A DNA stretch of 64,000 bases from a virus: IMG/VR virus record IMGVR_UViG_3300023184_000037, positions 1 through 64,000 of that record; one strand, written 5' to 3'. Shown piece by piece: positions 34,657 through 40,429 of the stretch (position 1 is the stretch's first letter; the number at the start of each line of letters is the position of its first letter). The notes under the pieces were generated by a model, which did not search any database, was not told the DNA's origin, and worked only from the letters and a program-made list of their open reading frames with translations. The position numbers and the translations under genes are program-made.

Positions 34657-36930
34657 ATGCCTGCACAGTGGCCGATATTTATTAACAACCTTTCTCAAAA
34701 ACTGGCCAGTAGAACTTCTAAAGGGCCGGACGATATTGGTATGTTTGTTGCTAATGAATATTTTAATGCAGTTAAAACTTCACAAACTCCATTTGGAAAT
34801 ATACACAAATCTGGACAGAAAGCAATACTTGAAACTGGATTTAAAAAGGCATTCAATATGCTATTCAAATCTCTTGAACCTCAACTAGAAGATAAATTTG
34901 GAAATCCACCATACGATGATATGTTTGAAAATTTACCTGGTGTAGATTTAAGCGTAAATCCAGACTGTGACTTCCAAGAGTGGACTATTAAAAACAAGGA
35001 AACTATAGACCCATTTGAATTCTATCCCCTGTTTCCTACAACATGTATAATTCCAAAGCCAATAGTCCCACCTACAAATCTATATGGAGATATCGACATA
35101 ACTTCCGAAAATGTTGACTCTCAACCAGAACTACGATATGTTACAATGACGGTTGAAGGTGGTGGTGGAACCTTTCCATACGAATTTACATATTCATTAA
35201 ATGGAGTAATACAACCAACATTGACTTCTGATAGTCAGGGAGTTGTAAAGTTTTTAGCTCCTACTGATGTTGGAAAATGGGATTACACATTTATTAGTGC
35301 AATAGACGCATCTAAAAGAGAAGAGATTAAAAATATAGATAGAAGTGCTTCGATTGAAATTAAAAAAGATCCGAAAGCAATCGATATTAAAGTTGATCCA
35401 CCAAAACCATTTCCTTTAGTAAAGCCGATGACTGAGGCTCAGCAAATTGATGAGCTAGCAAATAGAGTATACTATCAAAATGACGGAACCGAAGAATATC
35501 TTGATTGGGTTGAAAGACTTTCATACCATGGTAAATTTGCGGCTAAAGTAAGCAAAAAAGTTTTAACTCTTTTAGATACTGAAACCAATGAAATAAAAAA
35601 GTCGACTGGAATAGTTGGTATACCGCAGGCAAGTTCTGCCGGGGCTGTTGCTACTAACAACGTTAACTTCTACGATAAGATTAATCTGATTGAAAATACT
35701 ATTAAAAAGGCACAAGACAAACTTGATAAATTAAATAAAGCGGATCCTCCTCCTGTAACTAATAGATTAGGTGATGTAGTTTCAAATAATAATCAATCTA
35801 AACCTAAAGTCGACCCAATTGAAAAGGCATATGCAAAGGTTGAGCTCCTACAAGCAAAAATTTTACTAGAAAAAACGTATATAGCAGCAGCTCAAAGATC
35901 GAATAGTGGTTATATTGATACCTATAGAAATGATAGAATTGAAAGCTTAACTAAGGAACTTTCATTAGAATTACAAATAGTTAATGTTGAAATTCTTAGA
36001 AAAAATCTTAATGAAATTAAAGATGTCAATTCAATTGACTATATAATGGCTAAGATTCGTTTATATCAAAATGAATTAACAATTGCAACATATAAAAAAG
36101 ATGATAGAAAAATAGACTCCTTAAATAGGGAGTTGACGGTGCAAGCTCTTCGAGTTATTAAGCTTAAGAATAAAATTAAAAAAGAGGCGGCTACTAATGA
36201 TCGGCTATTTCAAGAGGAATATGACGACAGACCTGATATTATGCCAACATTTATAACTTCTAATTTTATTTGTATTTTTACGTACGTTAATGGAATTGAT
36301 GACAATCAAAAGAGTGCTCCGGATAAAAATCCTTTAATTGCACTTACAACATCAACATCTAGCTCTGGATATAGTAATAATACATTTGGTAGCACTTGGG
36401 GTAATTCAAAACCAGAAACGTATTCAGAATGGTCCCGAAGAACCGAACCTGGGCGTATAAGAGCAAAGGGGATTAGATATGAACTTGAAAAGGTTAGATA
36501 TAGAGAGTTAAAAATCAGGCATATCAATCAAATTGCCGAAGATAATAAAAAGGCTGGAAACCTATGTGGAGCCGATGATGCTTATTGTGTGATGTCAAAA
36601 TGTATAATTGACTATTGGAAATCTACAGCAGCCCAGCCATTTGCAAAGTCACCGCCAATATTACCTTGTTTAATACCAGATCCTGGAAGTTACATTCCAG
36701 TATATTATGGAGATGAGGCAAAACTAGGTGCAGATTTGAGAAGAGCATGGAATACAGGTAAGCGATTTAAAATGGAGCCAACCTTACAAACTGCAACAAA
36801 AGCAGTTGCGACCGCGGTTGCAGTATCATGCGCAAGGCACTTATTGGACCTTAAGTTTATATATAGTGGAAAGATTCCAGCAGGTACTGGTACCGCCCCG
36901 ATGATAGGATTTTCACCATTGGCCCTATAA
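34657..36930 (+). CDS. Large baseplate-region structural protein (757 aa)
   Basis: An alpha-helical N-terminus (PAQWPIFINNLSQKLASRTS), a beta domain with GGGGTFPYEFTYSLNGV (Ig-like, about 165-235), a long charged helical stretch (340-520) likely to be a coiled coil, and a Cys-containing C-terminal domain. It is placed between the spike and the S1-like gene. The Ig-like domain plus coiled coil suggests a virion protein. The exact role is unknown. Confidence 0.5.
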   Translation: MPAQWPIFINNLSQKLASRTSKGPDDIGMFVANEYFNAVKTSQTPFGNIHKSGQKAILETGFKKAFNMLFKSLEPQLEDKFGNPPYDDMFENLPGVDLSVNPDCDFQEWTIKNKETIDPFEFYPLFPTTCIIPKPIVPPTNLYGDIDITSENVDSQPELRYVTMTVEGGGGTFPYEFTYSLNGVIQPTLTSDSQGVVKFLAPTDVGKWDYTFISAIDASKREEIKNIDRSASIEIKKDPKAIDIKVDPPKPFPLVKPMTEAQQIDELANRVYYQNDGTEEYLDWVERLSYHGKFAAKVSKKVLTLLDTETNEIKKSTGIVGIPQASSAGAVATNNVNFYDKINLIENTIKKAQDKLDKLNKADPPPVTNRLGDVVSNNNQSKPKVDPIEKAYAKVELLQAKILLEKTYIAAAQRSNSGYIDTYRNDRIESLTKELSLELQIVNVEILRKNLNEIKDVNSIDYIMAKIRLYQNELTIATYKKDDRKIDSLNRELTVQALRVIKLKNKIKKEAATNDRLFQEEYDDRPDIMPTFITSNFICIFTYVNGIDDNQKSAPDKNPLIALTTSTSSSGYSNNTFGSTWGNSKPETYSEWSRRTEPGRIRAKGIRYELEKVRYRELKIRHINQIAEDNKKAGNLCGADDAYCVMSKCIIDYWKSTAAQPFAKSPPILPCLIPDPGSYIPVYYGDEAKLGADLRRAWNTGKRFKMEPTLQTATKAVATAVAVSCARHLLDLKFIYSGKIPAGTGTAPMIGFSPLAL

Positions 36931-36970
36931 AACAAATATATAATTTATTAACCTTTTAAAAATAATAACG

Positions 36971-38185
36971 ATGTCACAAGACGTTTTAACAAAACAAACA
37001 GAGAATTCTTTAAACGATATCTCTAACTTCGATTGGGATGCATACGCTGCAGATTGCCCATCTACTCTTAGAAAAATAAACCACCATGTAAAAGCTCCAG
37101 ACGGGGTTAAGGTGTATTCTAGAGAACCTTACGCCCAAGAACTTCTTAATTTAATGGAAAGTCACTGGAGCGAAAACACACAAACGCATACAATAAACGC
37201 CGGAGAAACACATACCGGTAAAGTCTACGCAGTAGACATGGAATGGGCATCTATCGATATTGGATATCGCGAGATGGTATACGTTCAATTGTCAAAAGAA
37301 TCCGCAATTTCAAGAGCGAGATTAGTTCCTGGAACTGAAATATCGGTTGAAATCACGGCAGAAAAAAGTAAAAGTACTCGAGGATTTGTATTGGGTTCTG
37401 TAGAAGCTGGTATTAAAGCCGCTACCCTAAGAGAAATCTTAGCAGCCGCTGAAACTGGAAATACTGCCTATATGGGAACTGTAACAAGTATGATTCCAGG
37501 TGGAGGTTACTTTGTTAACGTACAAGGAGTTGATTGTTTCATGCCGGGATCTCTAGCAGGTATTAATAAACTTGCAGACTTTGGTTCTGTAATTAACACT
37601 CAAATGTACGTAGTACCGATGAGTTACTCTCCTGAAAAAGGAACAGTAATTGTATCTCACCGAAAATATCTTCAAGCGCTTATTCCAAATGCAATTGAAG
37701 ACCTTAGAAATAATCCTGGAGAAACTAAAGAGGGTAACGTTACAGGTTCTACAAAATACGGAGTATTTGTTGAATTTGATGGTTGTTTAACTGGAATGAT
37801 TCATGCAAATGATTTAAACCCAGAAATGGCAAGAAAACATAAGGCTAGAGAAATTAATCCAGGCGATGTTATTGAATTTAAGATTAAAGAGATAATCAAT
37901 AATGATAAAATAACGTTGACTCAATTAGAGCATGTCGAAATTAGCGACCCATGGGCTGATGTTGCGACTAAGTATAAAAGCTTTCCAGTTGAAGTTAAAG
38001 GTACAATAAAATCTGTTAAAGATTATGGAGTATTTGTGGATGTTGGAGATGGTATTGTTGGATTACTTCATGTATCTGAACTTCCTGATAACGTTAAAGT
38101 GGATTCACTTGTTAAGAATGATAATATCACCGTTCAAATTACAAGAATGGACGTTGCAACCCGAAAAGTATTCTTAAAACTATAA
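36971..38185 (+). CDS. Ribosomal protein S1-like protein (Bacteroidota type)
   Basis: 404 residues. The N-terminus contains NFDWDAYAAD, which resembles the NFDWDAYE-like start of Bacteroidota S1. Four S1/OB repeats follow: HTGKVYAVDMEWASIDIGYR, YMGTVTSMIPGGGYFVNVQG, KEGNVTGSTKYGVFVEFDG and VKGTIKSVKDYGVFVDVGDG. Cellular S1 in this group usually has five or six repeats, so this one is shorter. S1 unfolds mRNA at the ribosome; in Bacteroidota, where Shine-Dalgarno pairing is rare, it matters more. The phage version may favour phage mRNA. It stands among baseplate genes, with its own terminator. It is probably of host origin. Confidence 0.9.
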   Translation: MSQDVLTKQTENSLNDISNFDWDAYAADCPSTLRKINHHVKAPDGVKVYSREPYAQELLNLMESHWSENTQTHTINAGETHTGKVYAVDMEWASIDIGYREMVYVQLSKESAISRARLVPGTEISVEITAEKSKSTRGFVLGSVEAGIKAATLREILAAAETGNTAYMGTVTSMIPGGGYFVNVQGVDCFMPGSLAGINKLADFGSVINTQMYVVPMSYSPEKGTVIVSHRKYLQALIPNAIEDLRNNPGETKEGNVTGSTKYGVFVEFDGCLTGMIHANDLNPEMARKHKAREINPGDVIEFKIKEIINNDKITLTQLEHVEISDPWADVATKYKSFPVEVKGTIKSVKDYGVFVDVGDGIVGLLHVSELPDNVKVDSLVKNDNITVQITRMDVATRKVFLKL

Positions 38186-38268
38186 TTGTTAATAACTTTT
38201 TGAAAATATTTAAGCCCAGATTTTTTTATCTGGGTTTTTTTGTTTATATTTACATTATAATTAAAACA
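38186..38268 (+). promoter_or_regulatory. Bipartite Bacteroidota-type promoter
   Basis: Upstream element TTGTTAATAACTTTTT (38186-38201), a T-rich -33 position inside the terminator stem (TTTTTTTA, 38221-38228), then 16 bases to the -7 box TATATTTAC (38245-38253) and ATTATAATTAAAAC. It drives the capsid-targeted gene at 38281. Confidence 0.65.
38215..38241 (+). terminator. Rho-independent terminator of the S1 gene, embedded in a promoter
   Basis: Stem CCCAGAT (38215-38221) / ATCTGGG (38228-38234), loop TTTTTT, then seven T. The T tract ends just before the -7 region of the following promoter. Confidence 0.85.
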
Positions 38269-39136: not shown

Positions 39137-40429
39137 ATGAATAATCTAAATGAATCTAGTATTTTACAGAATGCCCTAGTTGGCGTTGAATTTGAATTTT
39201 ACTCAAATTTCAGTGCGGAAGATACTGCAAAAAAACTTGCAAAATTACTTGGCAAAAAAATTCACGTTGAGGATAAAGCACATAGTGATTTTGAAGTAAC
39301 CAAAGATGAATTTAAAATAGAACCTGATATGTCGGGTGGCGCTAAACTTCTTGAGTTGGTTACTGGAGCCCTTCCATATACCGCAGCCCGATTAATGATA
39401 ATTAATGTTTGTAAGTGGATTGAAGAGAACGGATATACTAACGACAGGTCTTCGATACATTTGAATCTTTCATTTGATAAATCAAAAATTGAAAACAAGT
39501 ATCGTATCTCTAAGATGAACGTTCTTAAATTCATTTTAGATTTTAATGAAGAGCAAGTATTCAAATTCTTCCCTAAAAGAGAAAACTCAGCCTACGCAAA
39601 ATCGATTAAATTTGTACTTCCAAAAGAGGACACTTACTTCTTTGATGGAAAACACATCAATCAACAGAATTTTATTTACCCTGATACAAAATACTACGGG
39701 ATAAATTTTGACAAGAGACATAAAAATTATCTTGAATTCCGATATATTGGAGGAAAGGATTGGGAAAAGAAAACAACTACAATTCTCTACTTAGTTGATC
39801 GTTTCCTACTTCAATTATGGAAATCAACAGAAAACACCGACTTTACGGAATTAAATGCAATTGAATTAAAAAAGATAGTTGCAAACAATCAAAGAATAAT
39901 CGACGCTAGAAGGGACTGGAAAACAATTAAAGATAATTGGAAAAATGTTAAGTTCACTGTTGATATGAAGGATGACCCTAGAGTAGTTGATATGTACTGG
40001 AGTTCAGTTAAAGAAAGAGTGATGAGATTGTTTACCCATGGAGACCTTAGTAAAGGACATATTAATTATGATTCTGACGCTGGTAAAATTCAAGTAAATG
40101 GAGGTCGTCTAGAATATTGTGTTGACCTTAGAGGATATGAATTTGTAAGTTGTTTTTTACGAGGAGAATTTACAGAATGCGATATGTATGGATGCGATGT
40201 TAGTGGTTCAGATATTCATTATTGTAATTTCTATCAATCAACTCAAATTAATAGTTCTAAATTAGATGGTTCTTATGTTCATGGTACCTGCACAGCAAAC
40301 GATTGTTATGTTTATGGAAAAGGAACTTTTAAAGGAACTATGAACGGTGGAATCTTTAGAGAGGGTACTTATGATAAAAAACTTGCTAAATTTAATGATG
40401 TTGAAATTGTTAAATCTAGAACAATATAA
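39137..40429 (+). CDS. Amidoligase-like protein with pentapeptide-like C-terminus
   Basis: 430 residues. VGVEFEF (15-21) at the start, then DMSGGAKLLELVTG and SSIHLNLSFD, and YYGINFDKRHKNYLEFRYIGG, follow the order of the COOH-NH2 ligase (amidoligase) family: a GxExE strand, an SxHxH-like strand and an ExR strand. The C-terminal 110 residues carry about 20-residue turns like CSCFLRGEFTECDMYGCDVSG that resemble pentapeptide/beta-helix repeats. The enzyme could link an amino group to a peptide or modify the cell wall or a virion protein. It opens MNNLNES, a possible short leader. The family call is moderate. Confidence 0.5.
   Translation: MNNLNESSILQNALVGVEFEFYSNFSAEDTAKKLAKLLGKKIHVEDKAHSDFEVTKDEFKIEPDMSGGAKLLELVTGALPYTAARLMIINVCKWIEENGYTNDRSSIHLNLSFDKSKIENKYRISKMNVLKFILDFNEEQVFKFFPKRENSAYAKSIKFVLPKEDTYFFDGKHINQQNFIYPDTKYYGINFDKRHKNYLEFRYIGGKDWEKKTTTILYLVDRFLLQLWKSTENTDFTELNAIELKKIVANNQRIIDARRDWKTIKDNWKNVKFTVDMKDDPRVVDMYWSSVKERVMRLFTHGDLSKGHINYDSDAGKIQVNGGRLEYCVDLRGYEFVSCFLRGEFTECDMYGCDVSGSDIHYCNFYQSTQINSSKLDGSYVHGTCTANDCYVYGKGTFKGTMNGGIFREGTYDKKLAKFNDVEIVKSRTI

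Follow-up and report, generated by a model that had tools for sequence, protein, structure and literature searches.

On the plus strand of the window, the whole stretch of 64,000 nt that was analysed, positions 36971..38185 form a single open reading frame with an ATG start, which encodes a bS1-like phage protein of 404 residues (S1). The gene lies in the baseplate gene cluster of a T4-like phage. Its placement between virion genes in the preliminary description is borne out, as a gp5-type OB protein, a head-tail adaptor match and a baseplate wedge gene surround it (Table 1). The direct neighbours at 34657 and 38281 have no family match. No tRNA and no Rfam RNA was found in the window, and bS21 is absent from the phage contig.

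Table 1 Features of the S1 locus and its surroundings in the window
Feature	Position	Strand	Remarks
gp5-type baseplate OB protein	33906		virion gene flanking S1
Promoter-like motif ATATATAA	36936..36943	+	about 30 nt before the S1 start codon
Leader element TATTAACCTTTTAA (TATTAAC..TTTAA)	36946..36959	+	-25 to -12 of S1
FDWDAY motif	37028..37045	+	residues 20-25; Bacteroidia-class bS1 N-terminal signature
Predicted helix	37133..37174	+	residues 55-68, directly before domain 1; AlphaFold2
Domain 1	37202..37399	+	residues 78-143; Asp96 and Arg100 at the sites of E. coli Asp39 and Lys43
Domain 2	37460..37657	+	residues 164-229; highest conservation among viral copies (mean 0.81)
Domain 3	37718..37924	+	residues 250-318; canonical S1 RNA-binding domain (PF00575); YGVFVEF and GMIH motifs kept
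Domain 4	37976..38182	+	residues 336-404; canonical S1 RNA-binding domain (PF00575); protein terminates directly after
Intrinsic-terminator-like hairpin with T run	38212..38237	+	downstream of S1
Head-tail adaptor match	40445		virion gene flanking S1
Baseplate wedge	41659		virion gene flanking S1

Three other genes of the window were noted. The gene directly upstream of S1 (34657-36930, 757 aa) is the fastest-changing of the cluster, with 30-92% identity and higher values for its neighbours, and could encode a host-specific virion part. A putative amidoligase (PF12224) with a pentapeptide-repeat-like tail (39137-40429), also in the baseplate cluster, equals S1 in conservation and synteny. Farther away, a 656-aa gene at 10340-12310 matches a phage ATP-dependent protease family (phrog_4871, E=1e-241).

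In a profile search against NCBIfam, the rpsA profiles all align end to end with the phage protein. Each of its 11 top families is a model of 30S ribosomal protein S1, collinear with it from the domain-1 end, and the best of them (NF004952, E=1.6e-42) aligns residues 55-402 with profile positions 30-371 of 580. Because the score of 145.6 bits misses the rpsA equivalog cut-off of 524, the protein is not classed as a cellular RpsA equivalog. With an alignment profile, bS1 chains in the PDB match at E values reaching 1e-50. Conversely, for all bacterial bS1 proteins tested, the viral-protein profile matches best at domains 1-4 rather than 3-6. Thus, the tandem S1/OB domains are collinear with bS1 starting at domain 1.

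The four repeats reported in the preliminary description were confirmed by the collinear rpsA profiles and by an AlphaFold2 model, which places four OB folds at about the residues given in Table 1. The model, built with 35 viral homologues, has a mean pLDDT of 80.6, mostly 80-90 within the OB folds, and supersedes an earlier one with 14 sequences that had left domain 2 poor (pLDDT 66.7). Its low pTM (0.49) is expected for a flexible string of beads, the inter-domain arrangement being outside the model. The solved structure that Foldseek ranks first for the model is bS1 in a 30S mRNA delivery complex, aligned over 369 columns at E=2.8e-25; Q-beta replicase S1 and NusA follow at lower scores. 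The domain motifs said to be visible in the translation are so in domains 3 and 4, the only two canonical repeats found by Pfam (PF00575, 1.8e-25). Domains 1 and 2 are divergent, not obvious from motifs, and detected only by full-length bS1 profiles and the AlphaFold2 model.

Bacteroidetes bS1 has six S1 domains (PMC6705787). The phage protein has four, and its end is fixed after domain 4, as the C-terminus lies at most 4 residues from FLK, the close of that domain, in 205 of 216 viral copies. Among phage copies conservation is lowest in domain 1, and the RNA-binding residues of domains 3 and 4 are conserved; in the Bacteroidia host bS1, domains 2 and 3 are the most conserved, a trend as in the viral copies. 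Identity between the phage S1 and host bS1 is 25-30%. When 84,980 species genomes were scanned with the phage alignment, four weak matches and no cellular protein of the phage S1 type were found. The window gene is a phage bS1 homologue reduced to domains 1-4.

The N-terminus links the protein to one bacterial class. The FDWDAY-type sequence, correctly pointed out before, sits near the start of the protein, and FxW occurs in 216/216 viral S1 copies. Near the N-terminus of cellular bS1, [FI][DN]W was found in 30/30 Bacteroidia (the 30 that match a Chryseobacterium bS1 best), 0/30 other Bacteroidota (the 30 best-matching bS1), and 0/10 Fraserbacteria, a different phylum. Since the element is confined to Bacteroidia among the sets compared, FDW of the phage protein is a class-specific signature; it is also present in Lak-B2 S1. 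The designation as a Bacteroidota-type S1 holds for the N-terminus, but not for the six-domain architecture of that type. In 106/216 viral copies the N-terminus is extended by a longer stretch of net positive charge (e.g. MSDKKRRRI), which the window copy lacks.

Two further features concern the part of bS1 that binds uS2. First, the predicted helix before domain 1, in which A55 is invariant and Q56 nearly so, as is the preceding Y54, is comparable in position to the N-terminal helix with which E. coli bS1 binds uS2, although its alignment with E. coli Phe5/Phe9 (F5/F9) is ambiguous and the residue-level match uncertain. Second, Lys43 of E. coli bS1 contacts uS2, entering the uS2 pocket (PMC10123108), and the equivalent site is basic in all 21 aligned sequences of the window phage's group (R in 19, K in 2). 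It is K in all aligned Bacteroidia bS1.

Relatives of the phage S1 are encoded in at least 378 IMG/VR stretches (two scans). Synteny was examined with the baseplate wedge gene as an anchor, counting contigs with at least 4.8 kb of upstream sequence. S1 is present in 55/55 related contigs long enough to show the locus, across wedge identities from about 96% down to 55%, and lies within 1.6 kb of gene 39137 in 53 of them. The dN/dS of S1 against close relatives is 0.05-0.07, indicating strong purifying selection. S1 is thus a core gene of the phage lineage, not a stray acquisition, and chance or misassembly as its source is excluded by this selection and by the synteny across many contigs.

Judged by the wedge and a 1241-aa protein, the nearest annotated phages comprise huge phages with no host on record, the Lak phages of Prevotella, Tenacibaculum pT24/PTm1/PTm5, Flavobacterium MaF61, and Chryseobacterium MA9V, as well as PAU (host given as Sphingomonas). 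Together with the start-codon context, these make Bacteroidota very likely the host. In the huge phages LR756500, LR756502, and LR745206, S1 lies within about 6-13 kb of homologues of the baseplate cluster, and in the Lak phages S1 and the baseplate wedge gene are far apart.

A tree was built on domains 1-4 with LG+C20 PMSF. All phage S1s, namely those of the window group, Lak phages, and huge phages, fall on one side of a 100/100 branch, across which lie the bS1 of Bacteroidota, E. coli, and Fraserbacteria. In the free tree, the old, long-branched phage clade sits outside Bacteroidota bS1. With these long branches, the AU test rejects neither a placement of phage S1 with Bacteroidia (p=0.102) nor one with all Bacteroidota (p=0.181). 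The phage gene would descend either from an old capture from Bacteroidota or from an older phage S1 that took up the docking element of the host.

The S1 leader contains two short elements. The promoter-like motif belongs to a family, GATATATA/ATATATAA, that is enriched 28-41 fold upstream of genes relative to coding DNA, and a GATATATAA-like motif precedes S1 in the relatives read. Contig-wide, the GATATATAA motif is strongly enriched before plus-strand genes (e.g. 36971, 38281, 39137, and 53106), and is likely a phage-specific promoter. Most near relatives have hairpins after S1 similar to that in the window. The ATATATAA motif, the terminator of near relatives, and the place among structural genes suggest that S1 is transcribed separately and late.

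The other element, TATTAACCTTTTAA, keeps a nearly constant distance to the ATG in 38 dereplicated leaders, with 12.4 bits as against 5.5-5.9 in shuffled sequences, and its pattern occurs close upstream of no other start in the phage genome. Conservation of the S1 leader is 0.58 bits per position, higher than in most intergenic leaders checked (0.23-0.55), but lower than in two other upstream regions. The strict pattern was absent upstream of rpsA in 30 Bacteroidia. The excess in conservation over other leaders is thus modest, and the element could serve either in autoregulation or in enhancing initiation.

The start context of the phage genes was then compared with that of relatives. The 145-kb contig was sampled with 120 genes: 2.5% of their leaders contain an SD-core motif, as against 3.6% of shuffles, and A makes up 77% at -11 and 62% at -3, a pattern like that reported for Flavobacterium johnsoniae (PMC6847099). 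The earlier remark that the phage leaders lack Shine-Dalgarno (SD) sequences is therefore right. S1 domains were searched for in the complete genomes of five cultured relatives and found in none of these T4-like phages, which have the same wedge protein. In a 49-kb stretch of each cultured relative, counted with a simple ORF caller, four of these S1-less Bacteroidota phages (Tenacibaculum pT24 and PTm1, Flavobacterium MaF61, and Chryseobacterium MA9V-1) are equally SD-free, with an A fraction of 0.54-0.73 at -13..-11 and an A(-3) context shared with the window phage. The fifth, PAU, has a slight SD enrichment.

Because the lack of SD is equal in S1-less relatives, it is a trait of the host group that is not tied to phage S1, and because the same A-rich starts occur there, phage S1 is not required for such leaders. 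SD absence as a mark of S1 carriers is thus ruled out. As evidence, the argument of the preliminary description that, with SD lacking, a phage S1 could reprogram initiation fails on the same comparison. In published work on huge phages, rpS1 has been linked with missing SD (PMC7162821), a link that is exposed to the same confounding by host. SD absence, being so confounded, is no evidence that phage S1 redirects initiation.

Ribosomal protein S1 is the mRNA-catching arm of the ribosome, and binding of A-rich leaders by bS1 is the leading guess for how Bacteroidota find start codons without SD. We conceived that late in infection the phage S1 could dock on uS2 of the host 30S subunit, replacing the easily exchanged host bS1. 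Domains 3 and 4 of the docked protein would grip the A-rich leader at about 11-15 nt upstream of the start codon, and the ribosome would thereby keep initiating on SD-less late phage mRNAs. A docking-competent phage bS1 acting on the host 30S late in infection is the best explanation of the data and is probably correct. It is favoured by the full-length best matches to bS1 profiles and structures, by the FDW element, and by the basic equivalent of K43. Counted against it are the low identity to host bS1, the missed bS1-specific curated cut-offs, and the fact that, of the four domains, the ribosome-binding domain 1 is the one least conserved in phages.

Published work on cellular bS1 fits a protein of this size. 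E. coli can grow without domains 5-6, which also have little effect on 30S initiation complexes, but not without domains 1-3, and domain 4 has a stimulating effect (PMC3858243), so that domains 1-4 suffice as a functional unit. In F. johnsoniae, bS1 is the most loosely held ribosomal protein, and its addition doubles initiation on an SD-less mRNA (PMC9976891). Domain 4 of bS1 has been placed to touch mRNA nucleotides -12 to -15 (PMC6847099). The A peak of the phage leaders at -11 falls where domain 4 is placed, and the phage protein ends after that domain. That the phage S1 would actively favour phage over host mRNA, rather than merely keep bS1 supplied, can be put forward only tentatively. 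Rather unlikely as a whole is the widest version, in which a lineage of T4-like Bacteroidota phages with an essential bS1 would turn host 30S subunits into phage-S1 ribosomes late in infection that choose phage mRNAs by their A-rich leaders, the S1 mRNA being controlled via its leader element. If true, a virus would specify an mRNA-selective ribosome in bacteria that dispense with SD pairing.

Other functions can be considered for the same protein. An RNA chaperone derived from bS1, which would coat, protect or repress phage mRNAs including its own without joining the 30S subunit, is improbable, as such a binder would not need the strict bS1 collinearity of domains 1-2, and the ribosome-binding part has preserved its FDW element, its helix, and the basic residue at the anchor. 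It would nevertheless account for domains 3-4 being canonical RNA binders with domain 1 the least conserved, and many non-ribosomal RNA-binding proteins use S1 domains (PMC6375957). Its own leader holds the conserved 14-nt element, and S1 of E. coli represses its own synthesis (PMC6705787).

The location of S1 in the baseplate cluster in 55/55 contigs, and within about 6-13 kb of homologues of that cluster in LR756500, LR756502, and LR745206, could also speak for a component of the virion or of tail assembly, which might be injected, or, with the Foldseek matches to Q-beta replicase S1 and NusA, to a transcription or antitermination subunit that uses S1 domains as those proteins do. However, these matches score lower, the top ones being ribosomal bS1 within ribosome complexes, S1 is far from the baseplate wedge in Lak phages, and it is missing from related T4-like phages with the same wedge protein. 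We hold such a role to be quite improbable.

An antagonist that displaces host bS1 from uS2, supports initiation poorly, and shuts down host translation is very improbable. Domains 5-6 are missing and truncated bS1 forms still bind the ribosome (PMC3858243), but E. coli bS1 domains 1-4 are functional rather than inhibitory (PMC3858243), and the RNA-binding residues of the phage domains 3-4 are conserved. Moreover, phage mRNAs resemble those of the host in start context, so a general block would hurt the phage too. Finally, a cellular gene brought in by contamination or misassembly, conceivable for a 145-kb metagenomic contig of an uncultured virus, has a next to negligible probability, given the same gene with the same neighbours in all 55 contigs, relatives in at least 378 IMG/VR stretches, and a sequence too divergent from any cellular bS1 found.

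The docking reading can be compared with known systems. For rpS1-like proteins of huge and Lak phages, a role in redirecting initiation was proposed in 2020 (Al-Shayeb et al. 2020, PMC7162821). These proteins share with the window group one clade (the 100/100 branch), multiple S1 domains, and SD-less genomes. On the other hand, contigs of the window group are about 145-235 kb as against 460-735 kb, and its gene is fixed at the baseplate-cluster locus in every contig checkable. The window group has strict D1-D4 with FDW; FDW is common to Lak-B2, but was not observed in the copies of LR756500-504/LR745206.

Cellular bS1 (RpsA) of Bacteroidia has the same FDW element, D1-D4 order, Lys/Arg at the uS2 anchor, and S1 RNA-binding motifs. 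It differs in having six domains and about 600 aa, whereas the phage copy has four domains and an insert of roughly 20 residues after FDW, and phage relatives often carry the basic N-terminal extension. The Microcystis jumbo phage PhiMa05 also encodes bS1 (PMC13157829), but within a set of six ribosomal proteins that were traced back to a host like Vampirovibrio, in another phage lineage and host (PMC13157829). S1 was considered ambiguous, and so not included, in a survey of ribosomal proteins encoded by viruses (PMC6375957).

Judged against open-licence papers in PMC, phage S1 is already known, and what is new is its breadth and constancy in a lineage of smaller genomes. Also new are the fixed D1-D4, an N-terminal element specific to Bacteroidia, the preserved anchor residue, and the control that separates SD absence from S1. 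The comparison with S1-less relatives bears on the published correlation, as SD absence goes with the host rather than with phage S1. A lineage-wide phage bS1 with only docking and mRNA-holding domains would be a natural minimal reagent for start selection in Bacteroidota, as well as a test case for specialised ribosomes.

The closest parallel in the same host group is bS21 of Bacteroidota phages, likewise an exchangeable, initiation-related 30S protein encoded beside structural genes, and expressed late (PMC9723584; PMC6375957). The window contig differs from the bS21 phages in lacking bS21. A related 150-kb phage (L046/G245) has both bS21 (G245:C1:16488-16637) and S1, two initiation-related ribosomal proteins in one phage.
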